Shown here: piece by piece, positions 22,430 to 39,777 of the stretch | How the letters are laid out: every line of letters begins with the position of its first letter | Numbering within the stretch: the first letter of the stretch is position 1 | NCBI RefSeq assembly: GCF_033954455.1 | Contig: NZ_CP121473.1 | Location: forward strand, 2,342,501-2,406,500 | Source: Thiorhodovibrio litoralis | GTDB lineage: Bacteria; Pseudomonadota; Gammaproteobacteria; Chromatiales; Chromatiaceae | Direction: 5' to 3' | Length of the DNA: 64,000 nucleotides | The notes under the pieces: model-generated | Told to the model about the DNA's origin: nothing | The model's input: the letters and a program-made list of their open reading frames with translations, nothing else | The model's database searches: none | Made by a program: the position numbers and the translations under genes

Positions 22430-24649
22430 ATGGAACAGGGATCTAACAGCCACAGCGGTTGCAACGAGCCCGAACATCTATCGTCCGCGCCGCGCGCCCT
22501 GTGGTCGAACGAACGGGAACAGATGCTATCCCACGCTGCGCGCATGGCCCAGGTGGGCGGCTGGACGCTAGAGCCAAACAGCAGTCGATTCCGACCGACC
22601 GTTCACTGGTGCCATATCCACGGCGTCGAGCCGGGTGAATCGACCCTGGACAGCCTATTGCGAATCCTCCATCCCGATGACCGCGCGGGGATGCTGGCGG
22701 CCATCCAGCGCGCCTTGGAAGAAAAAACGCCCTACGTTCATCAGCACCGCATTATCCGTCCGGACGACCAAAGAACTCGCTTCATTCAGGACTATGGCGA
22801 GTTCCTGTATGACGCCAATGGCAAGCCCACGACTTTGTGCGGCGCCGCGCAGGACATTACTGAGCGGATTCGGATGCAAGACGCAATCCGGGATACCGAG
22901 GAACATTTGTATCTGGCGTTGCAACTTTCAAAAACGGCGATCTGGGAGTGGCATACAGACACCGACCAAGTGACATGGTCTGAGGACATGGCTTCAATGT
23001 GGGGCCTTGCTCCGAGACTGTTTCGTGGCACCTTCGAGGAGATCGCCTCGCGCATCCACCCCGATGATCTTGCGCACTGGCGCAAGAGCATGCAGGCCTG
23101 TGTTGAGGATGGCGCCGAACTCAACCTCGAGTTTCGTGTCCTCTGGCCCGACGGGTCAAGTCACTGGTTGGCCACCGATGGCGACGCGATTCGCGGCGCA
23201 AACGGTCGAGCCATCCGCCTGGCAGGTGTGGCCCGCGACATCACCGAACGTAAAACGAGCGAGCAGGATTTGCTCGAAAGCCAGATACGGCTGGAACAGT
23301 TGGCCTATTACGATCATCTCACCGGACTCGCCAACCGACGACTGCTGTTGGATCGACTGAGCCAAGCGATCGCCGTCGCCGACCGTGAGAACTCTCGGCT
23401 GGCCGTCTGCTATCTGGACCTGGACGATTTCAAGCCTGTCAACGATCAGTGCGGACACCAAGTAGGGGATATTCTTCTGCAAGCCGTTGCAGCACGCCTG
23501 GTTTCCTGTGTCCGCCCAAGCGATACCATTGCCCGCTGGGGTGGCGATGAGTTCGCGCTACTGTTTTCCGATGTCGCCGACCGGAACGCATGCATTCAGA
23601 TTCTTGACCGTATTCTGCATGGCCTGAACGAACGCCTGATCAAAGAGCAACCACAACCCGTTTCGGCCAGTATCGGTGTGACCCTGTATCCAGAAGATCA
23701 TGGCGATGCCGACAGCCTGTTGCGACATGCCGATCACGCCATGTACCTGGCAAAGCAGTGCGGACGCAACAACTATCAGTTCTTCGACCCCGAGAAGGAT
23801 CCTCTCGGCATCGCCAGCCGCGAACGTCTGCGCGACATCCAGCAGGCGATCAACGCCGGCGAGCTAAGACTCCTATATCAACCGATCGTCAACATGCGCA
23901 GCGAGTCCACTGCGGCGGTCGAGTCCGTGGAGGCGCTGGTGCGCTGGCAGCATCCGCGGCGCGGCCTCCTGGCGCCGGGCGAATTTCTACCCGCCATCGA
24001 GGGCAGCGACCTGATCCGCCAACTCGATCGCTGGGTGCTGCGCGAGGCCTTGGCCCAGCAAGAAGCCTGGGTCGGTCAAGGGCTGCACCTGCGCCTGCAT
24101 ATCAATGTCTCAGCCTATTCGCTGCTGACACCCGATTTCATGGTGGATGTTTCAGGATTCATCGGCCAGCACCCAGGTGTCCAGCCCGGTGGTATTGAAC
24201 TCGAAATCCTGGAAACCGCAGCGCTCAATGACCTGGATCTGGTCAGCGCGGTGATCCACCAGGGTACCCTGCTCGGGTTGTCCTTCTCACTCGATGACTT
24301 CGGAACCGGCTATTCGTCGCTGACCTACATCCGTCGACTCTCCGCCCGGACGCTCAAAATCGATCAAACCTTTGTGCGAAACATGATCAAGGATCATGAA
24401 GACCGCGCCATCGTCGAAGGGGTCATCGGACTGGCCCGCGCCTTTAATCTTGCGGTCATTGCCGAAGGCGTGGAAACCCTGGAGCACGGTTGTCTGCTGA
24501 TGCGCCTGGGTTGTGATCGCGTTCAAGGCTATGGCATCGCCCGCCCCATGAATGCCGAACGACTCACCGAATGGGCGACCGCTTATCGGCAGCCCGCGCT
24601 CTGGGCTGAGCTGACGGAATATCTGGCAGAAGACTTGGCGCCGGCATAG
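22430..24649 (+). CDS. PAS-PAS-GGDEF-EAL c-di-GMP signalling protein
   Basis: A 739-residue soluble protein. Two PAS_3-type domains (about 35-150 and 155-280; each ends in DITER) precede a GGDEF domain with DHLTGLANRR, DLDDFKPVNDQCGH and an intact RWGGDEF, and an EAL domain with YQPIVNM, ESVEALVRWQHP, LHINVSA, DDFGTGYSSL, TLKIDQTFV and VIAEGVET. Both catalytic motifs look complete, so it could make and break c-di-GMP, or use the GGDEF domain for GTP-controlled hydrolysis. It is convergent with the chemotaxis operon. No inhibitory RxxD site is evident before GGDEF. Confidence 0.92.
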   Translation: MEQGSNSHSGCNEPEHLSSAPRALWSNEREQMLSHAARMAQVGGWTLEPNSSRFRPTVHWCHIHGVEPGESTLDSLLRILHPDDRAGMLAAIQRALEEKTPYVHQHRIIRPDDQRTRFIQDYGEFLYDANGKPTTLCGAAQDITERIRMQDAIRDTEEHLYLALQLSKTAIWEWHTDTDQVTWSEDMASMWGLAPRLFRGTFEEIASRIHPDDLAHWRKSMQACVEDGAELNLEFRVLWPDGSSHWLATDGDAIRGANGRAIRLAGVARDITERKTSEQDLLESQIRLEQLAYYDHLTGLANRRLLLDRLSQAIAVADRENSRLAVCYLDLDDFKPVNDQCGHQVGDILLQAVAARLVSCVRPSDTIARWGGDEFALLFSDVADRNACIQILDRILHGLNERLIKEQPQPVSASIGVTLYPEDHGDADSLLRHADHAMYLAKQCGRNNYQFFDPEKDPLGIASRERLRDIQQAINAGELRLLYQPIVNMRSESTAAVESVEALVRWQHPRRGLLAPGEFLPAIEGSDLIRQLDRWVLREALAQQEAWVGQGLHLRLHINVSAYSLLTPDFMVDVSGFIGQHPGVQPGGIELEILETAALNDLDLVSAVIHQGTLLGLSFSLDDFGTGYSSLTYIRRLSARTLKIDQTFVRNMIKDHEDRAIVEGVIGLARAFNLAVIAEGVETLEHGCLLMRLGCDRVQGYGIARPMNAERLTEWATAYRQPALWAELTEYLAEDLAPA

Positions 24650-24699: not shown

Positions 24700-25488
24700 C
24701 TATACATTCTTAGAGTCAGCGTCCACGCCATCCAAGAGTGGCACGAGGGTTGCTGCCAGATTGGCGAAATCCTGAGCGCCACGACACTTTGGCGCATAGC
24801 TACGAACCGGCTTGCCAACACTGAAGGCTTCAGCCAAACGAATGTCGGAGCGAATGCCGGCCAGAACCCTCGGCGCGCCGAATTGACGCGCGACCTCGCC
24901 GGTCACCAGACGATGCTGGCGGATGTGCGCCGCCGACATGGTCGGCACAAAGCCGAGGATTTTCAGTTGCGGATTGGCGCCGCCCGAGATGATCTTGAAA
25001 AGCACCCGCATCAGTTGCCGCACCCCTTCCAGGGAGAGATGGTGCGGAACATAGGGCACCAGCACCCAATGCGCCGCCGTCAGTGCGTTGAACAACAGAT
25101 GGTCCAAAGAAGGGGGCGTGTCGAGAATCACCAAATCGAAAGCCGAGGCGATGTCTTGGTGCGCGAGCGCTTCAGCTAACCGCCCTTGCCCCCCCACACC
25201 GCTACCATGCTCGAATCGTTGGTCGGCCGGACATAGGGAGAGATTCGCAAAGGCGCTCGGGTAGACGGCAGCCGAGAGTTTTGCCAGAGGGTCGAGAAAG
25301 ATGCTATGGGCCGTGGGCGCATCCCGGTCCAATTTCAGGCCCAGCCCGGCGGCACAATGGCCCTGTGAGTCGAGATCAACCAGAAGAACCCGGCGCCCGA
25401 GCGCGGCCAGTTCGGCAGCGAGATTGACTGCCACCGTGGTCTTGCCGGTGCCACCCTTGCGGTTGGAGACGGCAATGATCCGGGGCAT
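24700..25488 (-). CDS. ParA-family ATPase at the end of the chemotaxis operon
   Basis: A 262-residue deviant-Walker ATPase: MPRIIAVSNRKGGTGKTTVA (Walker A with signature lysine), VLLVDLDSQGHCAAGLGL, LVILDTPPSLD and LVPYVPHHLSLEGVRQL. ATG 25488 begins at the homology. No ParB partner is next to it. It follows the membrane receptor by 16 bases, the last gene of the che operon. ParA-like proteins linked to chemotaxis (ParC of Vibrio, PpfA of Rhodobacter) position chemoreceptor arrays at poles or along the cell, and that is the likely role. Confidence 0.87.
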   Translation of the reverse strand: MPRIIAVSNRKGGTGKTTVAVNLAAELAALGRRVLLVDLDSQGHCAAGLGLKLDRDAPTAHSIFLDPLAKLSAAVYPSAFANLSLCPADQRFEHGSGVGGQGRLAEALAHQDIASAFDLVILDTPPSLDHLLFNALTAAHWVLVPYVPHHLSLEGVRQLMRVLFKIISGGANPQLKILGFVPTMSAAHIRQHRLVTGEVARQFGAPRVLAGIRSDIRLAEAFSVGKPVRSYAPKCRGAQDFANLAATLVPLLDGVDADSKNV

Positions 25489-25504
25489 GGCTAGACCGCA
25501 CCCA

Positions 25505-26791
25505 TCAAAACAGCTCGATCTGGGGCCGCTCGTCAGTCGCCGCCCCGGCACCGACCACTGCGGCGTGGGCATTACGCTGACTGGACATCACATAGCGATC
25601 AAGATGTCCATCCAAGCGCTTCTTGAGGCTTGGCTGCACCGAGCCGTCCCATGCAGCATCGCCAAAACGATCCATGAGCGACTGCAAATGTTCGCCCAAC
25701 TCGCCAAGAGCGATTCCGACCTGTTCCAGACGTTGGCGGACCACATCCTGAAACTGAATATATCCCAGTGCGCCGGACAGGCGTGTGACGATTTCCTGAT
25801 TCCCCGTCTCCACCCCTTGAATCACCTCCAGCAGCAAGGCGCTCCCCTCGGCGAAACGCGCCTCCATGGCGCTGATGTCGGTGATAATCCGATGAATATG
25901 GTCGCTGTATTGCTTGCGGTCCCTGGCCTCGCGTGCCACGATAAGCTCTTTTTCCGTGCTCTTTGTCGCTGTATTGATCTTGTTGGCAATATCCTCGGCT
26001 GCGCGGGCGGTTTGGGTGGAGAGGGTTCGCACCTCATCCGCCACCACAGCAAAACCGCGTCCTGTCTCCCCCGCACGCGCCGCCTCGATGGCCGCATTGA
26101 GCGCCAGAAGATTGATCTGTCTGGCGATATCGGAAATTACCCCAACCAGCGGAGACAGCGCATCCACCTGCCCGGAGAGGTGTTCGATGCGCTCCAGGTT
26201 GCTGTCGAGCTCCGTCATCTGCTCGTTGAGATGATCGCTCAGAACGGCTATGACCTCTTTGTTATTGGCCACCTGCTGTTCCATGACCTCCGCCAGTTCC
26301 ATGCCGTTCGCCATGGAATGCCCGATCCGATCCATCTGCGCACGGGAGAGTCCATGCACCTGATTGATCTGCTCGATCACCGACATGACTCCCTGTTCGG
26401 TCTCTTGGACGGTACCTTCCATCTGTTTCCTCATGATGTCGAGGTAAGGTGAAACATGGCCGATTTCGTCCTTGACCAGGGCTTCCTGAATGGACACGCT
26501 TTCAAGTTGAGAGTGGCCTTCGTGAAGCAAGCGAATAAAGGCTTTCAGGTCCTGGCGCAGAAACACCCAGGCCAGGACTCCGCTCAATGCCAACACGGAC
26601 ACCGTGGATAAGAAGGTAGTGAGGGCGATCTCAGTGGCATAGCTCATGCCCAGCGGGATGAGAAAGAGATCGCGCAGCCAGGGCGAGATCACCCAAGCAA
26701 CCATTACGTTGATAGCAAGCGCTACCGCGGCGGCCACCATAAGCCTGGAACGCGCGCCGCGCAATGGCAGTTGAGCATCCACCGTTTGCAT
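25505..26791 (-). CDS. Membrane methyl-accepting chemotaxis protein without a sensory domain
   Basis: A 428-residue receptor. Two membrane helices near the N-terminus ([18 protein letters not shown] and the stretch ending [13 protein letters not shown]) are separated by only about 25 residues, so there is no periplasmic ligand domain. The signalling tip reads [15 protein letters not shown] followed by [12 protein letters not shown]. The tail has [12 protein letters not shown] and ends RPQIELF. ATG 26791 (MQTVDAQ) is chosen because AGGTGGG lies upstream; a GTG at 26803 directly after the cheY stop is the alternative. It probably senses the membrane or an internal signal through partner proteins. 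Confidence 0.88.
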
Positions 26792-26803
26792 TCCGATGCC
26801 CAC

Positions 26804-27178
26804 CTAGGCGCCCGGCAGCACTTGCTTGATCACCTTGACAAGGGCGGGGCCGTCGACGGGTTTCACCAGCCAGCCGGTGGCGCCCAGTTTCTTGCCCTCG
26901 TCGCGCTTGTCCGCCTGACTCTCGGTGGTCAGGGTCAGGATGGGCGTGAAGCGGAACCCAGGAAGCGCGCGCACGTTCTTGATGAGCTCGAATCCACCCA
27001 TGTTGGGCATGTTGATATCGGTAATGATGAGGTCGGGCTTCACGCCACCCTTAAGCTTGGCCAGTGCCTGCACGCCGTCTCCGGCCGTCTCGACATCGAA
27101 GCCGTTCATCTCCAGGGTCGTCTTGACGCTATAGACCATGGTGGCGGAGTCGTCCACAATCAGGATTTTCTTGGGCAT
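26804..27178 (-). CDS. cheY: CheY-like single-domain response regulator
   Basis: A 124-residue receiver: acidic pocket VDDS (8-11), phosphoacceptor Asp54 in LIITDINMPNMGG, the conserved threonine region LTLTTES and lysine in WLVKPVDGP. It lies between the small STAS-like gene and the membrane receptor. It is one of two CheY proteins in the operon. Either could bind the motor or act as a phosphate sink; the sequence does not decide. Confidence 0.9.
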   Translation of the reverse strand: MPKKILIVDDSATMVYSVKTTLEMNGFDVETAGDGVQALAKLKGGVKPDLIITDINMPNMGGFELIKNVRALPGFRFTPILTLTTESQADKRDEGKKLGATGWLVKPVDGPALVKVIKQVLPGA

Positions 27179-27195
27179 TCTTGTTTTCCTTCAGG

Positions 27196-27432
27196 CTACT
27201 CGAGCAAGGCGGATTCGAGCCAACTACGTAATCCAGCATCCTTGGGCCAAGCTTTGATGACAGGCTTGGCTGCCATCAAGACTTGCAGATTGGCAGGATG
27301 CAGATGGACGCAATCGGCCAAATTCACCTTGGCAGTCGGCTTCTTCTGCAACCATTCCAATAAAGTTTCGGCTTCCTCAACGGTCACAATGTCAAGAAAC
27401 ATGGCATGATTGCCTTTGAACTCAATGGGCAT
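27196..27432 (-). CDS. Small STAS-like protein of the chemotaxis operon
   Basis: A 78-residue protein starting at ATG 27432, which overlaps the cheA stop (TGATG) and has AAGGAGA upstream. The alternating pattern VNLADCVHLHPANLQVLMAA resembles the core strand-helix unit of STAS/anti-sigma-antagonist folds but lacks the usual phosphorylated serine, so the assignment is tentative. Position between CheA and CheY suggests a structural or adaptor role. Similar small genes occur beside cheA in related clusters, as I recall. Confidence 0.55.
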   Translation of the reverse strand: MPIEFKGNHAMFLDIVTVEEAETLLEWLQKKPTAKVNLADCVHLHPANLQVLMAAKPVIKAWPKDAGLRSWLESALLE

Positions 27433-30182
27433 CACAGAATCTCCTTGACATTGAGCACCATCAGCACCGAGCCATCGCCCATCAGCGCGGAACCGGAATA
27501 GGCAGACAGACTCGCCAGAACACCAGTCATGGGCTTGAGGATGATATCGACGGTCTCGCGGAAATCGTCCACCAAAAGGCCCAGGGTTTCATCGCCCAGT
27601 CGCACCACTAGCACCGCCAACTCGTCATCAGCGTTGGCCTTGTGCTGCGCCTGAATCCCGAGCAGGGTGTTGATCGACTTCAGCGGCACAATACGCCCGC
27701 GCAAGACCGTGGCCAGACTGCGTTTGATAGTGCGAATCGCAGACTGGGGCACTCGCACAGTTTCCACCACAGTGTCCATCGGGACACCGAAGGACTGATC
27801 ATCGGAGACCACGATCATGACGTTGGTCACGGCCATCGACAAAGGCACCGACAGCCGCAGTTGGGTCCCCTGCCCCAGAACACTGGTCAAGGTCATAGCG
27901 CCGTTGACCTTCTCCACAGCTGAGCGGACCACATCCATCCCCACCCCGCGTCCAGAGAGGTCCGACACCGTCTCTGCGGTCGATAAACCAGCGGCAAAGA
28001 CCAGATTCACAGCCTCCTGGTCGCTGATGCGCTCCAGCGTGGCCTCGTCGATGAGTCCCTTGGTATAGGCCTTGTGCTTGATGACATCGGGGTCGATGCC
28101 CTTGCCGTCGTCCTTGATCTCAATCACCACACGGTCGGATTCCTGGGTGGCACGCAGCGTCAGGGTGCCAGCCACTGGTTTGCCGGCAGCGGCGCGCACC
28201 TCGGGCGACTCGAACCCATGATCAAGACTGTTGCGCACGATATGCACCAACGGATCACCCAATGCCTCGATGATGTTCTTATCGGCCTCGGTGTCCTCCC
28301 CTTCCATGACCAGGTGCACATCCTTGCCGAGCTTGCGCGAGATGTCGCGCACCAGACGCGGGAAGCGCTGGAAAACAAAGGAAACGGGCATCATGCGCAC
28401 CTGCATGATAGCGTCCTGCATCTCCTCGGCGATGCGATTGATCACCGCGTAATGGCCCTTGATGTCGCGCGAGAGCTCACGCACCCCAAACACATCCTCA
28501 GCCCGTCCCGCCAAGTACGGCAGGCCATTCTTAGCCACAACCATCTCGCCGATCAGGTTCATCAGGCGGTCGATTTTGGTCTGATCGACCTTGAGGCTCT
28601 TGGGGCCGGCGATGGCATCCTCGGCGCGGCGACCGAATTTGACCCCGCCGCTCTCCCCTTCTGGCGCCGGTGTTGCCTGAGCAGCGGCTGGTGGAGCTTC
28701 GCTGGGCGCTGGAGCACTTTCTGTGGGAAGCTGAGGCGATACCGACGGATGCTCTGCGCCGGCTTCGGCAAGCACCGGAGCCATGGCGGGAAAGCGCGCA
28801 TCCAGCCAGGCCAGAAGGGCCGCGCCGCTGTTTGCCTCCAAGGCATCTCCGGTTGCCGCATCAAGCCCCGGCAGCGCCGCACTGTCGCCGCAGACGCGCA
28901 GGCAGCCGGACAGTGCGGCAGCGACGGACTGAATCCGACCAGGCAGCCAATCGGGATTGTCTGTCTGACTCAGAATGGTCCGTTGCGTGGCGACGACAGC
29001 CTCCAGCGCCTCAGCCTCCTCCGCAGACAAGGTGGCGACATCGTCGCGTTGAGTGCTGCCCTCTGCTGCGACAGCCCCGACGCCATCCCAAGCGGGCGGC
29101 TCGAAGGTACGCAATGACTCCAGGAGTGCGTCGAGAACGGCCGGGCTCTCTGGCTCGGTCTCCGGCTCAGTTTCCAGTACCAGCCGCAGCCAGCGCAGGG
29201 CCGAGGCGATCCAAAGATCGGGGTTGGAGAGTTCGAGCATGGTGCCGGCATTGCGAGCCAGGCCGTCAAGATCGCCGGCTCGCAACAGCTCCAATGCATC
29301 AGAGAGGAAGTCATCGTAGACCGGCCCACCATTGGTGTCGCCCTGGGGCAGAACCAGCGCGAGCCGGGCAACCGGTATAAGCCTTATCTGGTCCGCCACA
29401 TAGCGATAGTGTTCCTCCAGCGCGGCACGGGGTGCGGCGGTCAGCAGACTGAAATCCAGCAGGCAGGCATAGGCGTCCAGCTCGGCCAAGGGCGACCATG
29501 GGTCGCGTGCCTCAATGCCGCCCCACAGTAGTTCGGGGGTTTGGCGCACCAGAAAGAAGGGATCATCGCCCTGGTAAAAACATTGCTCCGACGGGGTGTA
29601 GACGAGCCAGTGCAGCGGATCACCCGCGCGGGCACGCCGATAAGCCTCCATGCGCGCGGTCTCGGGAATAGCGGCGAGCGGCAGTTGCGCGGATGCCTCG
29701 GGGTCCGGTTCTTTGCTCTCCACAGCCGTTGCGACATCGGGCGCGCCGGGCTTGCCTGGAGCCTGGCCGGAAGCCTGGTCAGGAGCCTGGCCGTCATCGG
29801 CTTGCATCAGCTCGCGCAGCGAGGCTCCCAGGCGTGCGGCATCCGTCCCGTGGGTTTTGCCCATGACACCGTCCGACTCAACTTCATCGCACAGCATGCC
29901 GACGAAATCCATCGCATCCAGGAGACGATCAGCCAGGAGCTGCGAGTAAGCCACCCGGCCGTTGCGCACCACATCCATCAGGTCTTCGCCGGCGTGCAGC
30001 ACCCGGGTCATTTCGGGAAAATCGAACAGACCACTGTTGCCCTTGAGGGTATGCACCAGACGAAACAGCTCATTCATCATGGCCGCGTCGCCGGGGGCGT
30101 TTTCCAACTCCATCAGCTTTTCGCTGATGCCTTGCAGAAAATCGCGCGCCTCCGACAGAAACTGTTCGAGCAATGGATTCAT
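27432..30182 (-). CDS. cheA: Chemotaxis histidine kinase CheA
   Basis: A 916-residue kinase. The Hpt (P1) domain has the phosphoacceptor His44 in RLVHTLKGNSG. A long variable region (about 130-520) rich in Ala, Glu and Pro replaces the usual short P2 and includes a poorly conserved segment of about 250 residues. P3 dimerisation starts near KVDQTKIDRLMNLIGEMVV. P4 ATPase has LVHIVRNSLDHGFE, DDGKGID and DLSGRGVGMDVV. The P5 CheW-like regulatory domain ends the protein. It overlaps cheY upstream by four bases. It is longer than E. coli CheA (about 650 residues) because of the middle region. Confidence 0.93.
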   Translation of the reverse strand: MNPLLEQFLSEARDFLQGISEKLMELENAPGDAAMMNELFRLVHTLKGNSGLFDFPEMTRVLHAGEDLMDVVRNGRVAYSQLLADRLLDAMDFVGMLCDEVESDGVMGKTHGTDAARLGASLRELMQADDGQAPDQASGQAPGKPGAPDVATAVESKEPDPEASAQLPLAAIPETARMEAYRRARAGDPLHWLVYTPSEQCFYQGDDPFFLVRQTPELLWGGIEARDPWSPLAELDAYACLLDFSLLTAAPRAALEEHYRYVADQIRLIPVARLALVLPQGDTNGGPVYDDFLSDALELLRAGDLDGLARNAGTMLELSNPDLWIASALRWLRLVLETEPETEPESPAVLDALLESLRTFEPPAWDGVGAVAAEGSTQRDDVATLSAEEAEALEAVVATQRTILSQTDNPDWLPGRIQSVAAALSGCLRVCGDSAALPGLDAATGDALEANSGAALLAWLDARFPAMAPVLAEAGAEHPSVSPQLPTESAPAPSEAPPAAAQATPAPEGESGGVKFGRRAEDAIAGPKSLKVDQTKIDRLMNLIGEMVVAKNGLPYLAGRAEDVFGVRELSRDIKGHYAVINRIAEEMQDAIMQVRMMPVSFVFQRFPRLVRDISRKLGKDVHLVMEGEDTEADKNIIEALGDPLVHIVRNSLDHGFESPEVRAAAGKPVAGTLTLRATQESDRVVIEIKDDGKGIDPDVIKHKAYTKGLIDEATLERISDQEAVNLVFAAGLSTAETVSDLSGRGVGMDVVRSAVEKVNGAMTLTSVLGQGTQLRLSVPLSMAVTNVMIVVSDDQSFGVPMDTVVETVRVPQSAIRTIKRSLATVLRGRIVPLKSINTLLGIQAQHKANADDELAVLVVRLGDETLGLLVDDFRETVDIILKPMTGVLASLSAYSGSALMGDGSVLMVLNVKEIL

Positions 30183-30550
30183 TGCGCCACCTCCCCCAAG
30201 AGCACCCGGACCTGGGCCAAGAGCTGATCGGGCTTGACCGGTTTGATCACATAGAGGTTGGCGCCGGCGGCATAGGCGCGTTGCTCATCGGCAGGCTGTG
30301 CCTCGGTGGAGATCATGATGGCCGGCACCTGCGGCAGATCGCCGCTGCGCAGTTCGTGCAGAAAACCATAGCCATCCAATTTAGGCATGTTAATGTCCAC
30401 CAGATAGAGATCGAAGCTCGACTGCAAGGCTTTTTCCAGTGCCTCAATGCCGTTCATCGCCTCCTCCACGGCGAAATTCGCCGTTTCGAGAATCCGGCGG
30501 TGATACAAGCGCACTGTCGCCGCATCATCGATAATCAGAATGCGCTTCAT
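30179..30550 (-). CDS. cheY: CheY-like single-domain response regulator
   Basis: A 123-residue receiver: IIDDA at the acidic pocket, phosphoacceptor Asp52 in LYLVDINMPKLDG, IMISTEA and the conserved lysine in YVIKPVKPDQ. Its start overlaps the cheR stop, and its stop overlaps the cheA start, each by four bases, so the three are translationally coupled. It is the more divergent of the two CheY proteins. Confidence 0.9.
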   Translation of the reverse strand: MKRILIIDDAATVRLYHRRILETANFAVEEAMNGIEALEKALQSSFDLYLVDINMPKLDGYGFLHELRSGDLPQVPAIMISTEAQPADEQRAYAAGANLYVIKPVKPDQLLAQVRVLLGEVAQ

Positions 30551-31407
30551 GACGTCTCCAGTGGCCTTTGATAGACGATGGCCTCAGGGAATTTCCGCAC
30601 CTTGTAAAGTGACGAACTGCGGCTCATGGATTCCGAATGACCAAGACAAACAAAGCCGCCTGGCTTCAAAGCGTCATAAAAGGTCTCAGTCGCCGTTTTG
30701 CGTGAGACATCGTCGAAATAGATCAGCAGGTTGCGGCAGAAGATCACGTCAAAGTCGCGATAACCCCGGGTATCGCCGCGCTCGGAGACATTGACCCGAG
30801 TGAACTCCACCGACTCACGCAGATCATCACAAATCTGATAGCCGTCAGCCTGGCGGCGAAAATACCGCTGCAGGTATTTGGCCGGCAAATGCTGCACCGA
30901 GCGGATTGAATAAAGCCCCTCACGGGCGCGAGCGAGAATTCGGGTATCAATGTCGGACGCAACGATTTCGACATCCCAGTGATTGATTCCTGGCCAGCGC
31001 TCCAAAAGATAAATAGCAATGGAATAAGGTTCCTCGCCGGAGGAAGATGGAACCACCCAGATACGGATGGCGCGCTGATCGCGTTTGCGCGCGACGATCT
31101 CCGGCAGCAGTGAATCGACCAAACACTGAAACTGATACTCTTCACGGAAAAAATAGGTTTCATTGACCGTCATCAGATTGGTCAATAACTGCACTTCATC
31201 GCTGCTCGCCTGAAAGCGCAGCAAGGTGAAATAACTGCGAAAGGTGCCGCTGTCCGTGGCTTCAATGCGCTCCACTAACCGCTTATCGACGAAATAGCGC
31301 TTGGATGCATCAAACTGGATGCCGGTCTTGCGATAGAAAAACTCCCGAAACTTCTGGAAATCCTCGTCGCTGATCCGGATATTGGCCGGCGCCGGATCAG
31401 GCTTCAC
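30547..31407 (-). CDS. cheR: Chemoreceptor methyltransferase CheR
   Basis: A 286-residue SAM-dependent glutamate methyltransferase for receptor adaptation. Landmarks: FYRKTGIQFDASKRYFVDKR in the N-terminal helical domain, LMTVNETYFFRE, the SAM site SSSGEEPYSIAI (usually CSTGEEPYS; here SSS), ASDIDTRILARAREG, FDVIFCRNLLIYFD and PGGFVCLGHSES. It starts inside the end of the HEAT-repeat gene (11-base overlap). Paired with CheB in the same operon. Confidence 0.93.
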   Translation of the reverse strand: MKPDPAPANIRISDEDFQKFREFFYRKTGIQFDASKRYFVDKRLVERIEATDSGTFRSYFTLLRFQASSDEVQLLTNLMTVNETYFFREEYQFQCLVDSLLPEIVARKRDQRAIRIWVVPSSSGEEPYSIAIYLLERWPGINHWDVEIVASDIDTRILARAREGLYSIRSVQHLPAKYLQRYFRRQADGYQICDDLRESVEFTRVNVSERGDTRGYRDFDVIFCRNLLIYFDDVSRKTATETFYDALKPGGFVCLGHSESMSRSSSLYKVRKFPEAIVYQRPLETS

Positions 31408-32020
31408 GAAGACGCCCTAGCGCCAGGTCGGTCGCAAAGCGGATGTATGGCTCGTCGGCAAAGCGCACCTGAAGGCGCAACAGGCTCTCGCGGGCTGACA
31501 CCGTCCCGACCTCACCGAGCAGATCCACTGCCGTGCCGCAAACATTGACATGGGAGTCGCGATCAATGACCTCGATCAGCCAGGTCTCCACCTCCGGATG
31601 ACAGAGGGATTCCAGAATATTGACCGCGAAGATCCGGACATCCGGATCGGAGTCGGCGAGCAATCCACGCATCATGGGCGCCACCGCGTCCGGCAGTTTC
31701 TGCATGGCCTCAATGGCCTCGTTGCGCAGCGCCGGTTCCTCGCTGCGCAGGCAGTCGACGAGACCCGCTACCGCTGTGGCGTCGCCCAGGCTGGTCAGGG
31801 TCGTAAGAATGACTTCCCGAACGGAAACATCCGCTTCTTGTTTGAGACGCGCCACCAACGCAGGCGCGGCATCCGGGCAATCGACCAGATCACGCGCCGC
31901 CCAACGCCGGGCGGTCGGGTCAGACGCCGCCAGCTGCACCATCAGACTCGCGCAATCACGGCCCGCCTGACGTGCATCGACGGTGATAGGCTCGTCTGTT
32001 TGGGTTTTGACGAGAGCCAT
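31397..32020 (-). CDS. HEAT-repeat protein of the chemotaxis operon
   Basis: A 207-residue protein made mostly of HEAT/armadillo-like helical pairs of about 31 residues: DPTARRWAARDLVDCP, DVSVREVILTTLTSLGD, EPALRNEAIEAMQKLPD, DPDVRIFAVNILESL and DSHVNVCGTAVDLLGEVG. Such repeats bind proteins and are not part of the standard Che set. ATG 32020 (MALVKTQTDEP) is ten bases after the cheB stop. The first residues MALVK also begin the soluble receptor (MALVKHSS). Its place between cheB and cheR suggests an adaptor for the adaptation enzymes or for a receiver; the function is unknown. Confidence 0.82.
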   Translation of the reverse strand: MALVKTQTDEPITVDARQAGRDCASLMVQLAASDPTARRWAARDLVDCPDAAPALVARLKQEADVSVREVILTTLTSLGDATAVAGLVDCLRSEEPALRNEAIEAMQKLPDAVAPMMRGLLADSDPDVRIFAVNILESLCHPEVETWLIEVIDRDSHVNVCGTAVDLLGEVGTVSARESLLRLQVRFADEPYIRFATDLALGRLREA

Positions 32021-32030
32021 GATCGAAGCC

Positions 32031-33095
32031 TCAACGCCCCGCCCAGGTATTAACCTGCGCGGCGATCTTCTCCGCATGCAGCACCAGGCTGGCACCACCG
32101 CGCGCGATCAGTTCCGCTGGCATCCCAAAGACCACAGAAGATTCCTCGGATTCGGCGATGGTGCGCCCGCCGCGCGCTTTTATCTCGGCGAAGGCATCGG
32201 CGCCGTCATAGCCCATGCCTGTCAGTAGGATGCCGATGACCCGCGCGGGGTCGCAATGCTCCAGCACCGAGCGACCCAAGAGCTCGACCGAGGGGTGCCA
32301 GAGAAAGTCGTGATTCTCGGGCTTGGAGAGGACTGTCAGGCACCCGCCGCGCTGACCCACCACCATGTCGGCGCCGCCCTTGCCGATGTAGATGGTGCCC
32401 GGCTCGACCGGCATGGGACGCGCGACCTCCACGACATTCAGGGTGCAGAGCCCGTTCATGCGCTGAGCGAAGGGGAGCGTGAAGGACGCGGGCATGTGTT
32501 GAGACACCAGAACCGGCCAAGGGAAATCTGCCGGCAAGCGCGGCAGGATGTCCTCCAGAGTGCGCGGGCCGCCGGTCGAGACGCCAATCACCACCAGCCC
32601 CTCGCCCGCCACGCCGCGACGCACGGCAAGCGGTCGCGGGGCCGGTTTCGCCTGCTCCTGACGCAAGCGGTTACTGACCGTCCGAGCTGTCCTGGATTTG
32701 AGTCGGGCACCTGCCGCAGCGCGCACTTTAGCCACCAGTTCAGCGCTGATCTCGTCGATAGAGAGCGAAATGGTGCCGCCCGGTTTGGCCAGATAGTCCA
32801 CGGCCCCTAGATTGAGCGCCTCGAAGGTCGCCAGCGCCCCCTGCTCGGTGAGCGAGGACACCATGACCACCGGCACCGGCCGCTCTGCCATTATCAGCGA
32901 TAGTGCTGTGATGCCGTCCATCTCCGGCATGTTGATATCGAGCGTCACCACGTCCGGCTCGAAGGCGCGATTCTCCTCGACCGCCTCCTGGCCGTTGCGC
33001 GCCTGACGAATCTCAAAGTCTCCCTCTGCCTGGAAGACATTGGCCAACTGACGGCGCATCAGCGCCGAATCGTCAACAAGCAGCAGCTTAATCAT
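32031..33095 (-). CDS. cheB: Receptor methylesterase/deamidase CheB
   Basis: A 354-residue response regulator with an N-terminal receiver (VDDS, phosphoacceptor Asp53 in VTLDINMPEMDG, YLAKPGG) joined by a basic linker to the methylesterase domain. Catalytic residues are visible: Ser173 in VIGVSTGGPRTL, His200 in VSQHMPASF, and the aspartate in LLTGMGYDGADAF. Its start overlaps the triple-CheW gene by four bases. It removes receptor methyl groups and, with CheR, gives this system its own adaptation. Confidence 0.94.
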   Translation of the reverse strand: MIKLLLVDDSALMRRQLANVFQAEGDFEIRQARNGQEAVEENRAFEPDVVTLDINMPEMDGITALSLIMAERPVPVVMVSSLTEQGALATFEALNLGAVDYLAKPGGTISLSIDEISAELVAKVRAAAGARLKSRTARTVSNRLRQEQAKPAPRPLAVRRGVAGEGLVVIGVSTGGPRTLEDILPRLPADFPWPVLVSQHMPASFTLPFAQRMNGLCTLNVVEVARPMPVEPGTIYIGKGGADMVVGQRGGCLTVLSKPENHDFLWHPSVELLGRSVLEHCDPARVIGILLTGMGYDGADAFAEIKARGGRTIAESEESSVVFGMPAELIARGGASLVLHAEKIAAQVNTWAGR

Positions 33096-34774
33096 GCGGA
33101 CAAGGCCGCCAGGTCGGCCAGCTCAGGTCCCCGCACCAACTGCGTGGGATCAATCAACTGCACCAGACGCTGCTGCTTTTCAAGGTTCGCCATGCGCGCG
33201 AGGAGTTGTGATTGCTCGCTGGACAATTGCGGCGCCGGTTCGATGGCGGTTTTGGGAATCTTGAGCACCTCAGCCACCGAATCCACAATGAAGCCGGTGC
33301 GCGCGCCTTCGATCAGAAACACCATGACACGTTGGCGGTCCGTGCGCTCCACGCTCTGCAAGCCCAGGCGTCGGCGCAGATCGATCACCGGAAGGACAGT
33401 CCCGCGCAGGTTGATGACCCCCTCGACGAAGGCCGGCGCCTTGGGCACATGAGTCAATTCATCTGGGACACGCACGATCTCCTGCACGCTCTCAATCGGC
33501 ACACCGAACTCCTCCTTGTCGAGGCGGAACACCACGACCTGCTCATCATCGTCGGCGCTTTCCTCGTCAGAATCCTCAACATCGGCTCGCTCGTCCTCAG
33601 TCATGCTATCCACGGTGGTCAAGGCCTCCTTGATGGCTGAATGACGGAAAAGGTTGTCGGTGGAGATGATCGAGACCAGGCGCTTGCCGCCGTCGAGCCG
33701 ACAGATATCGGAGATGTCGGCCATATCCCCGTCGCGCGCCAAGAGACCAGGCATGGCCTCGACCTCGGCCTTGGCGACTCGCAGGACTTCGTTGACGCTG
33801 TCCATCACCAGGCCGACCGAGGTCCCGCCCAGCGACACCACCACGATGCGGCTATGTTCGTCCGCCTCCTGCGGCGGCAGCGCGAACATCCGGCGCAGAC
33901 TCACCAGGGGCAGCAGCCGATTGCGGAGGCTCATGACACCCAACACATGTTGCTCCGAGCGCGGCACCTGCACGATATGCTCGGGCACCTGCACGATCTC
34001 CTGAACATTCTCGATGGCGATGGCGTACTCCTGCCCGGCGACATCGAAGCTCACCAGTTGCAGCTCGTCGCTGTCCTCTTCCTCTTCGGTTTCGGCCTGC
34101 CTGGAAAGCCCCGCCGTCATTCCTGCGGACTTGGCCAGCTTGGCGATGTCCGCGAACTCCCGGCTAATGAGTTGAGCGAAGTCCAGCACCATAATCATGG
34201 CGTGACCGCCCACGTCCTTGATGAGACCGGACAGCAGTTGGGTATCCACAGTGCTGCTGATGGAGCCGACCGCCTCGATTTTGGCCGGCTCCACGCCTAT
34301 CACGCTGGCAACCCGGTCGACCACAAAGCCTAGGGGCTGGCCAATGTCGATCACCAAGGCGCGGGTGGTGTCATCATGCTCTCGCTCAGGCAGTCCGAAC
34401 AGATGGCGCAGCGCGATGATCGGCAACACCTTGCCACGCAGGTTGGCCAAGCCTTGCAGACTGGGTGGAGCCAATGGCACCCGGACCACCTCCGGTACGC
34501 GGATGATCTCTTGCACCGGGGCCATGTCGACGGCGAAGACCTCCTCGCCGACGACGAAGGTGACGAACTGGCGGATGTCGCTGACCTGCTCATCGAGGTC
34601 ATCATCCAGTGGCACCCCATCGCGTCCTTGCTTGCTTTGCCCTTGGCTGCTTTGCCCTTGCCTGCTTTTAGGGGGGGAGTCCTTGGGGTTTTCCGTCAGG
34701 GTCTCTGGTCCAATTTGTTCTGGTCCAATTTTTTTTTCTGGGCGAATCTCTGGAGGGGGAGTCTCTATCGTCAT
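33092..34774 (-). CDS. cheW: Triple-domain CheW scaffold protein
   Basis: A 560-residue coupling protein containing three full CheW domains (about 65-200, 226-365, 410-550). Each has the CheW pattern: EVFAVDMAPVQEIIRVPEV then LANLRGKVLPIIALR, EYAIAIENVQEIVQVPEHI then SLRNRLLPLVSLR, and EFGVPIESVQEIVRVPDEL then NLRGTVLPVIDLRRRLGL. Acidic linkers (EEEEDSDE, EDSDEESADDDE) separate them. The N-terminus is low complexity, with a GQSSQGQSKQG repeat. Ordinary CheW is about 160 residues with one domain. Multi-CheW proteins could join several receptor-kinase units. No single-domain CheW is present here. Confidence 0.93.
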   Translation of the reverse strand: MTIETPPPEIRPEKKIGPEQIGPETLTENPKDSPPKSRQGQSSQGQSKQGRDGVPLDDDLDEQVSDIRQFVTFVVGEEVFAVDMAPVQEIIRVPEVVRVPLAPPSLQGLANLRGKVLPIIALRHLFGLPEREHDDTTRALVIDIGQPLGFVVDRVASVIGVEPAKIEAVGSISSTVDTQLLSGLIKDVGGHAMIMVLDFAQLISREFADIAKLAKSAGMTAGLSRQAETEEEEDSDELQLVSFDVAGQEYAIAIENVQEIVQVPEHIVQVPRSEQHVLGVMSLRNRLLPLVSLRRMFALPPQEADEHSRIVVVSLGGTSVGLVMDSVNEVLRVAKAEVEAMPGLLARDGDMADISDICRLDGGKRLVSIISTDNLFRHSAIKEALTTVDSMTEDERADVEDSDEESADDDEQVVVFRLDKEEFGVPIESVQEIVRVPDELTHVPKAPAFVEGVINLRGTVLPVIDLRRRLGLQSVERTDRQRVMVFLIEGARTGFIVDSVAEVLKIPKTAIEPAPQLSSEQSQLLARMANLEKQQRLVQLIDPTQLVRGPELADLAALSA

Positions 34775-34784
34775 GATCGCACCC

Positions 34785-36701
34785 CTAGGCGCTTTGCAGT
34801 TCGTCGGCGAGGGAGGCGATCTCCTCGACGGCGGACGCCAGTTCCTCAGCCCCTTGCGACTGCTGCTGGGAAGCGGACGCCGCCTCGGTCGCGGCCTTAT
34901 CGGCCTGCTGAGCGGCAGCGGAGATCTGCTCGATGCCAGTCTTCACCTGGGTGACAGCCGCGACAATCTCACCAGCGGCGGCAAGAATTTCCTGCGTTCC
35001 TTCCTCCACGGTGACGATATCCGTCTCGATGGTTGTCAGATTGGCTGTGGTCGCCTTGGCCTTTTCCACCTCAGTGAGCGCAGAGGAGACAATCTCCTCC
35101 AGATCGCGCCCGACGATGCCGATCTGATCCTGCACTGCCTTGACCAGATCCTTGATGTTGTCGGCGTTTTCGGCCGAGTCATGGGCCAGGTTGCGAATGT
35201 CGGTGGCCACCACCACAAAGCCCTTGCCGAATTCACCCGCCCGCGCTGCTTCAATCGAACCATTCACAGCCAACATATTGGTCTGGATGGAAACCGTAGT
35301 GATGGCGTCGACGATCTTGTCAATGCGCCGGGAAACTAGCTCCAGGTCATTGATCTGTTTGATGCTCGAGCGCGAGGCATCCGCCGCAGTCGAGACCCCG
35401 CTAACCAGGCCGTCGACGGTGGTCTTGTTCTCGGCCAACAGGGCCTTGATCGCTTCCACCTTCTCGGCGCCGGCGGTGGCGCGCGCCTGGGCCAGCTCCA
35501 GCCCCCGCTCGATCTGGGTCACAGCAGCGGCCGACTCCTCGGTGCTCGCAGACTGCACCTCGGCACCCTTGCGGATCTGGTCGATAGCGACCTCGATCTG
35601 GGTGCTGGAACGATTGATCTCAGCGACGGCGGATGACAGTTCCTCAGCGGCGGAGGCCACCTCCTCGGCACTCTTGGCGACATCGGTCGATGTCTTGAGG
35701 TCCTCGGCCAGCTCCGAGAGCGCCTGGGCCGCCTGCTCGCACTCGGCCAACGCCTGCGACTGTTCAGCCACCGTCTTGGCGGCTTCCTCGGCAGCAGCGG
35801 ACTGCTCCTCGGCAGCGGCGGCAATATCCTCCGAGCCCTTGAGCGCCTGCTTGGCGGCGGTGCTCGACTGCTGGGCGCCGGTGGCGATCTCCTGCACGCC
35901 CTTGACGATCTCGGCCGCATCCTGACGGATCTGCTCCAGTTGGGTAATGATGGACTTACCCTTTGCCGCCTCCGCCCCCACGGTTTTGGCCGATGTGCCG
36001 ATGCCCTGGGCGATGGTCTTCACCTCGCCTTGGATCTGCCCCACCAGGTCTTGGATCTGCTTGGCGCTCTTCTCCGAGGTCTCGGCCAGGGTGCGCACCT
36101 CGTCAGCCACCACCGCGAATCCCTTGCCGTGCTTGCCGGCGCGGGCCGCCTCGATGGCAGCATTGAGCGCCAGCAGGTTGGTTTGGTCAGCGATGCGCGC
36201 CACTGCCTTGACGATATCGCCGATGTTGGCCGCCTGTTTCTCCAGTTCGGCCACGCGCTCGACCGAGGCCGATTGACGCTGGGCCGAGAGACCGACATTC
36301 GTAACCAGAGCGTCGATCTCAGCGCTGGCCTTAGCCACCAAGGTCTGAGTGGCATCACTCTTCTCTTGACTGGTATTCGCGCTACGCAATTGGCGCCCGA
36401 TGGCCACCTCGACCTGTTTGAAGGCCGTGAGTGACTCCTGGGCCGCACCGGACGCCTCCTCGGCGCCGGCGGCAATCTGATCGACCGCGCGCTTGAGTTC
36501 CTCAGCCGCGGAGGCTGCCTCATTGACGCCCGAGGACAACTCGCCGGTGGCGGCGGCGATGCGCTCGGCCGCCTGCTGCTGCTTGGCCAGGGTGCGCGCG
36601 CGCTTGCGCTGCGCCTCCGCCTCGCGGGCGGCCGCCGCCGATGTCTTGCCTTCAGCCGCATTGGCGCTAGCGGCGGTTGAGGAATGTTTCACGAGGGCCA
36701 T
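34785..36701 (-). CDS. Soluble chemoreceptor with two tandem signalling modules
   Basis: A 638-residue receptor with no membrane segment. It contains two complete signalling tips: [20 protein letters not shown] then [15 protein letters not shown] (near 180-240), and [20 protein letters not shown] then [15 protein letters not shown] (near 470-530). Ala/Glu/Ser-rich heptad coiled coils flank both, with many EEAS/EELASA-type patches that could be methylation sites. No sensory domain is recognisable. ATG 36701 (MALVKHSS) follows AGGAG by eight bases and is preferred to ATG 36749. It is the first gene of the operon. Its promoter region now abuts an IS element about 95 bases upstream. Confidence 0.9.
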
Positions 36702-36796
36702 GCGGTGTCTCCTGAGGTTCGCACTGAAAGGTCTGACCAGCTTATTCAAGTCTAGCCGATATCCGCAACGTCAAGACCAAACAAATCAATTATTCT

Positions 36797-38409
36797 TTCA
36801 CCGGTGTCCGGTTCAAATTTCCACCATGACGCATAATTCCACCATACAGAAGCGCCATGCAGTCCTGTGCAAGCGTGTTGCAGTTGGAATGCGTTTTTTG
36901 TCTCGTTGGACAGGGCCGCTGTAGCGGTCCGCGAAATAGAAAACCGCTGGGAAAAACTGAAAAAAAGACTTGACAAGCACATTGAGTGTTCGCAACACGT
37001 GGGTGTCTCAAAGATACCACACTGGAGTGCTCCTCATGATCCCCAACCGACTCGATGCCCTGATGAATGGCCTGCTTAATGACACCGTTTTCGCCGACCT
37101 GGTGGCGCCCGTGCAGCGCGCACTGGCGTTTGTGCGCCGGGCAGCCTCGGTGGGGCGGGTGTTGAGCATGGAGCGCTTTATTGCCTTGGGCGTGTGGCGG
37201 CAGTTGCAGGGGATGGGGGTGCTGCGCGAGCAGGTGCAAGCACTCGATCATCTGCGTGATCAGCTGGCCCCGCAGGCAGAGTCGGTGGTGCCCTTGGCGC
37301 GCTCGACCTGGTCCGATGCCTTGGCCTCCACTGAACGCCGCGCATTGCTGCAAGCGATGATTCCGGTGCTGATGCGCGAGGTGGGGGCGGTGCTGCCTGA
37401 TCGTCTGGCGGGAGTTCCTGGACTGGATGGCCGCCCGGTGCGGGCGATGGATGGCACCTATCAGGAAGAAAGTGCGCATTATCGCCGCTGCACGCCCAAG
37501 CAAGGCGGGGAGGATAATCCCAAGGGACATGGCGAGTTGGTGTTCTACAACCTGCGCCTGGGGTTGGCCGAGGATGCGTTGGTGGAGACGCGTAGCCGCC
37601 ATGAGATCAACCTATTGCGGGACTACGATGCGCGCCCGGGCGCGCTGACACAGGAGGCGCGAACGCTGTGGGTGGTTGATCGCGCCTTCATTGATGCCGC
37701 CTTCTGGGACCGGAAGAAACGCACCCAGGGCAGTACCCTGATCACGCGCATGAAGTCAAATCTGGTGGTGGGCTCGCGTGCCGCCATGCCCATTGCCAAG
37801 ACGCCGGAGAACGCCGTGGTGCTGCGCGATGAGCGCCGGGCCTTGTTGAGTTCTTCTCAGGAATGGCGGTTGATCACCTTGCGCACCCGCCAGGGTCGGC
37901 GCTTGGAGTTTCTGACCAATGATTTCAGTCTCTTGCCCGGTGTTGTCGCGTTTCTTTATGCCCGCAGATGGGACGAGGAGGTGTACTTCAAGGAAGCCAA
38001 GCAGTCTCTGGGCTTGCTCTGGGAGCAAACCGAGACCTTTGCCTCGCATCTGGCCCCGATCCACTTAACCGCCGTGCGCTATTGCCTGCTGGCGTTCGCC
38101 CAGATCCAAGGCGCCGGGACGCGGGTCTGCGAAGTCCGCACGGCCGTAGGCGCGCAGCTCAGTGAGCTCGATTTCGCCAAACGCCTGTGGGGCTTTTTCC
38201 GCGCCTTGATCGCCGAGGCCGTCGACGGACTCCAGAAGACGTTCGGGCCAGCCGGCACGCTGGTGATGAGTGCCATCGATGAGCGGGTGCAGCGCTTCTT
38301 TGTCCAGGCATTGCAACTCGATGAGTTTACCCTTCGGTTAGAAGGCGTGGAGCACGGTTCTATCGAGGCTTGAGCCGGCCAGTATGGCTTTTTTGAACTC
38401 CGAAACGTG
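36797..38409 (+). mobile_element. IS4-type insertion sequence between the che operon and cusA
   Basis: The right boundary is fixed by cusA: codons are family-like down to position 38410. The left boundary is tentative. A CAC..CGG-GTTCAAA..CCAT pattern at about 36800-36827 resembles the inverted sequence at about 38380-38409, which would make imperfect terminal repeats. One transposase gene is inside. No direct repeat of the target can be shown, because the two flanks come from different loci. Confidence 0.6.
37036..38373 (+). CDS. IS4-family DDE transposase
   Basis: A 445-residue transposase. [11 protein letters not shown] holds the first catalytic aspartate and [10 protein letters not shown] the second. 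The IS4 signature Y-x2-R-x3-E-x6-K is perfect in [18 protein letters not shown] 37036 ([10 protein letters not shown]) follows GGAGTGCTCCTC closely. A TTGACA in the upstream stretch (36971-36976) may be its -35 box. The gene looks intact, so the element may still be mobile. Confidence 0.88.
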
Positions 38410-39777
38410 AGTAATAATCAGCAGGCTGAAGAAGAGCGCCGGGCCGACCTCGGCGGCGGCTTCGCCGATCACCCTCCAATGGTCCTCGCCGCGCGGGCGC
38501 TCGCCATGCGCGGCTTGCCAACGCTCAAGATGCTTATGGGCGTTCTCGATCATCACAATGGCCGCGTCCACCATGGCACCGATGGCAATGGCGATGCCGC
38601 CTAAGGACATGATGTTGGCGTTGATGCCCTGGTGTTGCATGATGACGAAGGCCGCCAGAATGCCGAGCGGCAGGCTGATGATGACCACCAACGCCGAGCG
38701 CAGATGGAACAGGAAGGCGATGCACACCAGAGCGACGACGATGAATTCCTCAATCAGCTTGGTCTTGAGGTTGTCCACCGCATCCAGAATCAGCCCGGAA
38801 CGGTCGTAGGTCTCGACGATCTCGACCCCATCGGGCAAGCTCGCGCGCAGGGCCTCGAGCCGATTCTTGACCGCATCTATAGTGGCAAGCGCATTCTCGC
38901 CCGAGCGCATCACGATAATGCCGCCGGTGATCTCGCCTTCGCCGTCGAGGTCCGCCACCACCCGGCGCATCTCGGGGCCGATCTGCACCCGCGCGATGTC
39001 GCGCAGCAGCACCGGGGTGCCTTCAGGACTGGTGCGCACCGGGATCAACTCGATATCCTCAAGCGAGCGCAGATAACCGCGCGTGCGCACCATGTATTCG
39101 GCCTCGGCCAATTCCAACACCGAGCCGCCGACATCGCGGTTGGCGTTCTGCACCGCTGTGATGACCTGCCGCAGCGGGATGCCGAACCCGCGCAGCTTCT
39201 CCGGGTCGACCACAATTTGATACTGGCGCACCATGCCACCGACGGTCGCCACCTCGGCCACGCCGGGCAGGGATTGCAGCTCGAACTTCAAGAACCAGTT
39301 CTGCAGGCTGGTCAACTCGGCCAGATCATGCTGACCGCTGCGGTCCACCAGCGCATAGCTGTAGATCCATCCCACGCCGGTCGCATCCGGGCCGAGACGC
39401 GGCTGCACGCCGTCCGGCAGATCGGCCGCAGCCTGATTCAAATACTCGAGCACCCGGGCGCGCGCCCAGTAGAGGTCGGTGCCGTCCTCGAAGATCACAT
39501 AGACATAGCTGTCGCCAAAAAAGCTATAACCACGCACCGCCTTGGCGCCCGGCACCGACAGCATGGTGGTGGTGATGGGGTAGGTGACCTGTTCCTCGAC
39601 CACCCGCGGCGCTTGACCGGGAAAGCTGGTCTTGACGATCACCTGCACGTCGGACAGATCGGGAATGGCATCTAGCGGTGTGCGCGCCAGGGCATAGAGG
39701 CCCCAGGCCGTCAGCGCCAGGGCCGCGAGCAGGACCAGGAAGCGGTTGTTGAGCGACCAGGCGATGACCGCTTTCAT
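38410..39777 (-). pseudogene. cusA: CusA-type heavy-metal RND efflux pump, 3' half lost
   Basis: The first 456 residues match a heavy-metal RND pump: [92 protein letters not shown] and [20 protein letters not shown]. CusA is normally about 1040 residues. Here the family sequence stops after SLLIIT and 23 unrelated residues from the IS follow to a stop at 38338. The remaining transmembrane helices and second porter domain are absent from the window, so the pump cannot work. The start abuts the cusB stop directly. Confidence 0.92.

Follow-up and report, generated by a model that had tools for sequence, protein, structure and literature searches.

The closest described counterpart of the system reported here is cluster I of Vibrio cholerae, a chemosensory system of the F9 class, which encodes an adaptor made of three concatenated CheW domains (VC1402) and a receptor with two signalling tips, DosM (VC1403). 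The array lies wholly in the cytoplasm: DosM bridges two baseplates of CheA and CheW, and trimers of receptor dimers form extended hexagonal arrays (PMC7534058). The DosM and triple-CheW architectures have been called unique to F9, and full F9 clusters were counted in 64 species out of 2781 genomes/species surveyed (PMC9321776). In a stretch of 64,000 nucleotides from Thiorhodovibrio litoralis, a purple sulfur bacterium of the Chromatiaceae whose genome is a single 5.47-Mb contig (NZ_CP121473.1, positions 2,342,501 to 2,406,500; this whole stretch is called the window), we find, between 36701 and 24700 on the minus strand, eleven genes in the order DosM, CheW3, CheB, a HEAT-repeat protein, CheR, CheY1, CheA, a 79-amino-acid STAS-like protein, CheY2, a second receptor (MCP2) and ParA (Table 1). 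This operon very probably encodes a full F9-class system that forms a cytoplasmic two-baseplate array. The observation is sound and the class is a known one, to which it adds purple sulfur bacteria; the CheZ-like site in MCP2 is a new, testable lead, at slightly less than even odds.

The assignment to F9 is made because both published signatures of the class are present: the first gene encodes a receptor with tandem signalling domains (tip glutamates 184 and 484) and the second a triple-CheW adaptor, and the operon has its own CheA, CheB, CheR and CheY. Gene content and gene order are observed directly, and Pfam domains and coordinates agree with the earlier note on this DNA, which had listed a CheA, a CheB, a CheR and two CheYs, a double-tip soluble receptor and a triple CheW in first and second place, and HEAT and ParA proteins. 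CheZ, CheD and single-domain CheW are, as that note had it, absent from the eleven genes. Cluster I of V. cholerae likewise has DosM, triple CheW, CheA, CheB, CheR, two CheYs and a membrane 24H receptor (VC1394) and, as it is described, no cheZ (PMC7534058, PMC11940527); its genes named in print include VC1394, VC1397, VC1402 and VC1403. Compared with that description, T. litoralis differs in having ParA beside the receptor and two copies of the operon per genome. Two papers on F9 (PMC7534058, PMC9321776) mention neither HEAT nor STAS in their main texts, and any role of the HEAT and STAS-like proteins is a matter of surmise.

Triple CheW and CheA would build two baseplates. DosM dimers, having a tip at either end, would span them and fix the distance between two receptor layers, so that a cytoplasmic sandwich results whose lattice is the ordinary hexagonal one. 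CheR and CheB would adapt the receptors, and CheA would phosphorylate CheY1 and CheY2. The distance observed between the DosM tip glutamates is 300 residues in the window, and the same value holds for all 20 two-tip frames found by scanning 33 loci for tips 250-350 residues apart (two of these frames repeat other records, and most of the remaining loci have no whole dosM). This constancy fits a spacer between two baseplates, and such a 300-residue ruler predicts a fixed baseplate distance. Two points weigh against the assignment and the array: F9 membership rests here on gene content, not on CheA phylogeny, and the array proposed for T. litoralis is modelled on that of V. cholerae. The earlier note had proposed a cytoplasmic array with a non-standard lattice. 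The first part is well supported, as DosM and triple CheW are published F9 signatures and the F9 arrays of V. cholerae are cytoplasmic. The second we reject: the published arrays are hexagonal and made of trimers of receptor dimers (PMC7534058), and since the core of the gene set is a known class, a standard lattice is expected. Nor is the set new as regards DosM, triple CheW and the core che genes, which belong to an already characterised class.

A search of 92 genomes found a CheW3 with matches to all three domains in 11, the host included. As far as each fetched stretch reaches, the same gene order, with the HEAT and STAS-like genes, recurs in related loci L042-L062 (loci and genomes carry our own numbers, L and G), and is kept from Chromatiaceae to metagenome-assembled genomes labelled Desulfobulbaceae, Methylovulum and others. 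Such recurrence goes beyond chance. Four loci are exceptional: L058 and L060, where only DosM and CheW3 were found, and L043/L052, where no MCP2 or ParA was found after CheY2. The HEAT protein was matched in 19 of these 21 loci at 47-94% identity, L058 and L060 being the two unmatched. The partial sets of L058 and L060 (the latter a 4.2-kb contig) come from a Spartobacteria metagenome-assembled genome, and no MCP2-type receptor was found in these stretches. In L043/L052, from Rhabdochromatium marinum, antisense frames after CheY2 resemble the GGDEF-EAL neighbour of the window operon (see below).

CheZ proteins conserve [FY]Q beside a D-x-x-x-Q site; their hairpin dimerises as a four-helix bundle and is followed by a linker and a conserved CheY-binding C-terminus (PMC7750401). 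The McpA-like receptors of F7 systems have a strikingly conserved C-terminus without a CheR pentapeptide, whose role has been called important yet unclear; where stage 1-2 F7 systems are present, cheZ is reported only from F6 clusters (PMC7184735), and a 2025 review lists V. cholerae cheZ only in cluster II (PMC11940527). MCP2 resembles the McpA/CttP-like receptors of F7 clusters (PA0180, VCA1088) in its membrane region, in its conserved C-terminus without a CheR pentapeptide, and in being encoded with che genes without cheZ, a likeness that rests on the published description of McpA (PMC7184735). The MCP2 sequence has an N-terminal hydrophobic region and ends in QIELF, which does not fit the published CheR-docking pattern x-[HFYW]-x(2)-[HFYW].

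In what would be its C-terminal helix MCP2 carries Q-[FY]-Q-D-x-x-x-Q, a match to the active site of CheZ (residues 143 and 147 in E. coli) that the earlier sequence-only reading did not contain. Q-x-Q-D-x-x-x-Q and a terminal IELF are observed in all 14 aligned F9 MCP2s, each with the CheZ-type D-x-x-x-Q after [FY]-Q. These rows are frames after CheY2, chosen by position and not by motif, and include both copies of the host genome; L054 was left out (it is absent from the listing of open reading frames), L061 duplicates L044, and L043/L052 lack a frame at this place. The L054 frame has the same motif and tail. Motif and tail stay invariant although identity to the window protein drops to 19%; apart from the signalling region (223-272), invariance is confined to L346, Q350, Q352, D353, Q357, R358, L397 and I429-E430-L431-F432. 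Seven further triple-CheW loci keep D and Q, and end in IELF (four loci), IQFF, LELF and VELF (one each). For comparison, 25 CheZ proteins, picked from 26 loci by the expression [FY]QDxxxQ, share [FY]-Q-D-[LI]-[TS]-G-Q and a conserved C-terminal peptide. The likeness to CheZ (PF04344) lies in [FY]-Q-D-x-x-x-Q, with a conserved tail that may correspond to the CheY-binding C-terminus of CheZ, and the differences are that the MCP2 site is inside a receptor, that it scores below the Pfam cut-off, and that the tail is IELF, as against DDLLSSLGF or similar in CheZ.

In a set of 38 receptors the signalling tip and the D are separated by 111-113 residues in 37. Before residue 226, no column but E136 reaches 80% conservation (32 of 38); by counting from the turn, E136, on the opposite helix, would face Q357. 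Of this set, 24 rows were picked by motif; L118 (from the host), L121, L125, L140 (truncated) and L134 (tip unrecognised) were dropped, and L145 was never in. A structure model of MCP2 was unusable (pLDDT 65.1, pTM 0.34).

Profile searches extend the family. A profile of the 14 F9 C-termini found matches in 87 of 370 genomes of the class: the best lie in receptors whose frames mostly span about 370-490 amino acids, and the weaker ones include ordinary receptors matched near the tip only, frames of 180-260 amino acids, and the known CheZ of G077 (E 2.8e-5). At least 28 of the 370 sampled genomes have a McpA-like receptor of this family. A 39-row set was then compiled: 12 of the 14 F9 rows (without L011 and L042), and 27 rows from the 29 loci L119-L147, excluding L140 (truncated) and L145, whose QFED variant failed the expression QxQDxxxQ, so that motif invariance in this set is partly due to selection. 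F9 rows have QFQDVVRQR or similar with IELF, and F7-like loci QFQDRxSQIL or similar with [IV]xFF or similar. Against the 11 F9 genomes, the 39-row profile gave 43 matches and recovered the CheZ gene in all 11 (E 4.4e-6 to 4.2e-4); nine of these positions coincide with Pfam CheZ hits, and those of G034 and G050 were recognised by frame length and profile position. Twenty-eight matches, in frames of 401-551 amino acids, were taken for family members, the motif not being checked in each, and four are larger receptor frames, of which that of G050 (E 2.5e-6) outranks the CheZ of the same genome. In a local test, the family profile put 24 of 25 CheZ proteins above every unrelated receptor of the host genome and the last just below one. 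Conversely, a CheZ profile placed 39 of 39 family C-termini above control receptors, only 15 of them with an E-value of 0.01 or lower; it did not detect the family member L117 (2.2 bits). With hhalign, CheZ matches the 39-row family at 90.2% and ordinary receptor C-termini at 15.7%. Pfam CheZ itself gives sub-threshold matches in 4 of 10 MCP2s, in a single register (E 1e-4 to 0.02). The best relative, MCP2 of G002, scores 25.6 bits; because the cut-off of 30.7 bits is not reached, MCP2 is not filed as a CheZ, and we reject its identification as one.

Several results weigh against reading this likeness as a phosphatase site. Pfam CheZ does not match the other six of the ten MCP2s, which include that of the window; against the CheZ profile the window protein scores only 5.3 bits (E 6.5). 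The 14 F9 rows by themselves reach 31% against CheZ in hhalign (control 14%). In searches of the PDB, coiled coils rank above CheZ (1kmi_Z), whose E is 0.3 in one and 2 in the other, the profile search with a 56-residue core, where it stands third. When the seven motif residues are masked in CheZ the match is lost (median E 22), so the likeness rests mainly on the motif, and an ordinary-receptor profile also reaches CheZ, at a median E of 0.14 and a best of 1e-4. In CheY, Lys92 contacts CheZ, and the 15 aligned CheY2-type proteins have no basic residue at that position. The F6 CheZ of the genome could, moreover, act in trans.

MCP2 may accordingly be an ordinary structural or signalling receptor, in which QFQDxxxQ is a feature of the helix and the resemblance to CheZ a convergence of coiled coils; we give this a substantial chance, well short of even. 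The masking result and the coiled-coil background that ordinary receptor profiles give against CheZ are what it would lead one to expect, and columns 1-91 of the family are clearly those of a receptor (hhalign 95.2% against ordinary receptors). Convergence of the helix sits less well with the fact that invariance outside 223-272 is limited to L346, the motif with R358, L397 and the tail, with the retention of D and Q in the QFED variants L117 and L145, which the motif expression missed, and with the CheZ register being found by hhalign unaided. On balance, a receptor-borne CheY2 phosphatase is a plausible reading of MCP2, though one that falls a little short of an even chance. One variant, L117 (also L148; G000 C1 4850210), is a third family member in the host genome, with QFEDITRQ and the tail ELDFF; in the 18 kb around it, two larger response-regulator frames were the only matches to che queries, and none matched as CheA, CheW or CheR.

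The tail has a neighbour to which it might bind. In 18 of 20 family neighbourhoods the receptor adjoins a CheY2-type gene, after cheY in F9 loci and before it in loci that are F7-like by gene content, and in a few the open frames overlap; the exceptions are L156, where no CheY was found, and L158, a 3.3-kb contig. No frame in the 20 neighbourhoods had CheZ as its best match when two CheZ queries were used. The 15 CheY2-type proteins share T-T-E-[SAG] and a Trp, where the single aligned F6 CheY has Tyr. It has also to be considered that IELF docks CheR or CheB, as does the receptor pentapeptide of E. coli, and not CheY2: a short linker with a C-terminal peptide ending in Phe is the arrangement of CheR-tethering receptors, and four receptor loci of the host genome (L106-L109) end in DFERF. 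QIELF, however, lies outside the published pattern, and a McpA variant with Val at position 2 was reported to interact with none of four CheRs (PMC7184735). In L156, L165 and L167-L171 it is another receptor that ends in a CheR-type pentapeptide (DFERF, EFVRF etc.; the other receptor's end in L164 is not of this type and that in L166 nearly so), and the family members there end in IELF, [IV]xFF or similar. We consider CheR or CheB docking quite unlikely, and do not favour a CheR pentapeptide role for a peptide that fails the pattern.

A somewhat less remote, still improbable, alternative is that MCP2 serves as a sink or reporter for phosphorylated CheY2, or is part of the membrane-bound F6 array and so links the F9 and F6 systems without hydrolysis. 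McpA-like receptors do associate with F6 arrays and are dispensable for F7 arrays (PMC7184735, PMC7534058), and the N-terminal hydrophobic region of MCP2 agrees with such a location. Against it, D and Q are both kept at the catalytic spacing, which is more than binding would seem to need.

If the phosphatase reading is right, the D-x-x-x-Q site on the C-terminal helix of MCP2 would dephosphorylate CheY2, docked by the IELF tail, and MCP2 would supply the phosphatase that is absent from the cluster; we infer these steps from motif and tail. By extension, McpA-type receptors of F9 and F7-like systems might be receptor-phosphatases, with a CheZ-type site in their own four-helix bundle about 112 residues from the tip, E136 opposite, and with a C-terminal peptide to capture the CheY encoded beside them; the chances of this wider proposal are, in our estimate, nearly balanced and slightly on the negative side. 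No receptor with a CheZ-type site is described in the titles or abstract openings of the open-access literature searched. Such a receptor would fill a gap in F9 and ancestral F7 systems, whose clusters have no CheZ: signal termination would then be a task of the receptor, possibly under control of receptor state. This would give a function to the conserved McpA C-terminus and to the receptor family as a whole, and a direct handle on the unknown outputs of F9/F7 systems.

The window copy of the operon is not the only one. A second F9 operon lies in the same genome (L011:3988-16038, G000 C1 about 1.684-1.696 Mb), with 91-100% protein identity. The divergence is patchy, cheB being identical over 1062 nt and dosM 91% identical in nucleotides, which suggests gene conversion. 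Upstream of dosM, L011 and the sister genome G001 share a 694-bp match (96.8%) that runs about 560 bp beyond the point, base 36721, where the window departs from both. At this point, 20 bp before the dosM start, begins DNA with a multi-copy insertion sequence: bases 36799-37979 have two further copies (98%) in the genome, besides fragments at other sites. The window copy may be silent or driven from the insertion, and its possible silence, with the native upstream region missing, counts against a working system encoded here. That the window operon is a decaying duplicate, its function taken over by L011, deserves about as much credence as the convergence of coiled coils. The loss of the upstream region, kept in L011 and G001, speaks for decay; all genes remain open, and the high identity between the copies, with cheB unchanged, suggests gene conversion or selection instead.

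The 79-residue protein had been called STAS-like in the earlier note. No Pfam family, STAS included, matches it at E up to 1. A confident structure model (pLDDT 93.6) resembles RsbV of B. subtilis in Foldseek (TM-score 0.65, E 8.5e-3), with SpoIIAA and RsbS also among the best rows; no E falls below 1e-3, and the top row is Mglu (E 5.7e-3, TM-score 0.45). In stage 1 F7 clusters a STAS-type gene for an anti-sigma-factor antagonist adjoins cheY and cheA (PMC7184735); our protein is likened to it by position, near cheY and cheA, and unlike it has no Pfam STAS match. After the F9 operon in L046, L047, L048 and L051 stand genes for an RsbR-like STAS protein, an RsbT-like ATPase and a SpoIIE-type phosphatase, checked with Pfam in L047 and read by eye in the other three.

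ParA probably positions or partitions the cluster. ParA without ParB occurs in che operons of 77 of 206 species, and PpfA of the Rhodobacter sphaeroides operon CheOp3 is such an ATPase, encoded with a cytoplasmic receptor (PMC2829493); the likeness is one of gene setting, the array class being different. In L157, L160, L161 and L162 ParA stands between the STAS-like gene and CheY2, not after MCP2, and it was not matched in the L154 and L155 neighbourhoods.

Table 1. Features of the operon and its upstream flank, in window coordinates
Feature	Position	Strand	Evidence
DosM, soluble receptor with two signalling tips, 638 amino acids, tip glutamates 184 and 484	34785..36701	-	two Pfam MCPsignal stretches
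CheW3, three concatenated CheW domains, 560 amino acids	33092..34774	-	Pfam CheW x3, 334.5 bits
CheB methylesterase	32031..33095	-	Pfam CheB_methylest 2.3e-53 and Response_reg
HEAT-repeat protein, 207 amino acids	31397..32020	-	Pfam HEAT_2 7.5e-27
CheR methyltransferase	30547..31407	-	Pfam CheR 1.2e-58
CheY1 response regulator, single receiver domain	30179..30550	-	Pfam Response_reg 2.8e-27
CheA histidine kinase, 916 amino acids	27432..30182	-	Pfam Hpt, H-kinase_dim, HATPase_c, CheW
STAS-like protein, 79 amino acids	27196..27435	-	open reading frame and predicted structure
CheY2 response regulator, single receiver domain	26804..27178	-	Pfam 2.4e-25
MCP2, membrane-anchored McpA-like receptor, 432 amino acids	25505..26803	-	Pfam MCPsignal
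CheZ-like motif codons in MCP2, Q350-F-Q-D-V-V-R-Q357	25733..25756	-	position computed from alignment numbering
IELF codons of the MCP2 C-terminal tail	25508..25519	-	invariant in 14/14 F9 rows; variable in some further F9 loci
ParA-type ATPase, 262 amino acids, Walker motif KGGTGKTT	24700..25488	-	Pfam AAA_31 5.3e-35
DNA 5' of dosM unlike both relatives, with transposase open reading frame 36970-38373	36722..38600		Pfam DDE_Tnp_1

ParA probably starts at the ATG at 25488 rather than at 25572, where its open reading frame begins, and DosM probably at the ATG at 36701. Convergent to the operon, at 22430-24649 on the plus strand, is a gene for a protein of 739 amino acids whose translated sequence shows GGDEF and EAL motifs; a stretch resembling it is also found beside the second operon copy (88% at the nucleotide level) and in G001.

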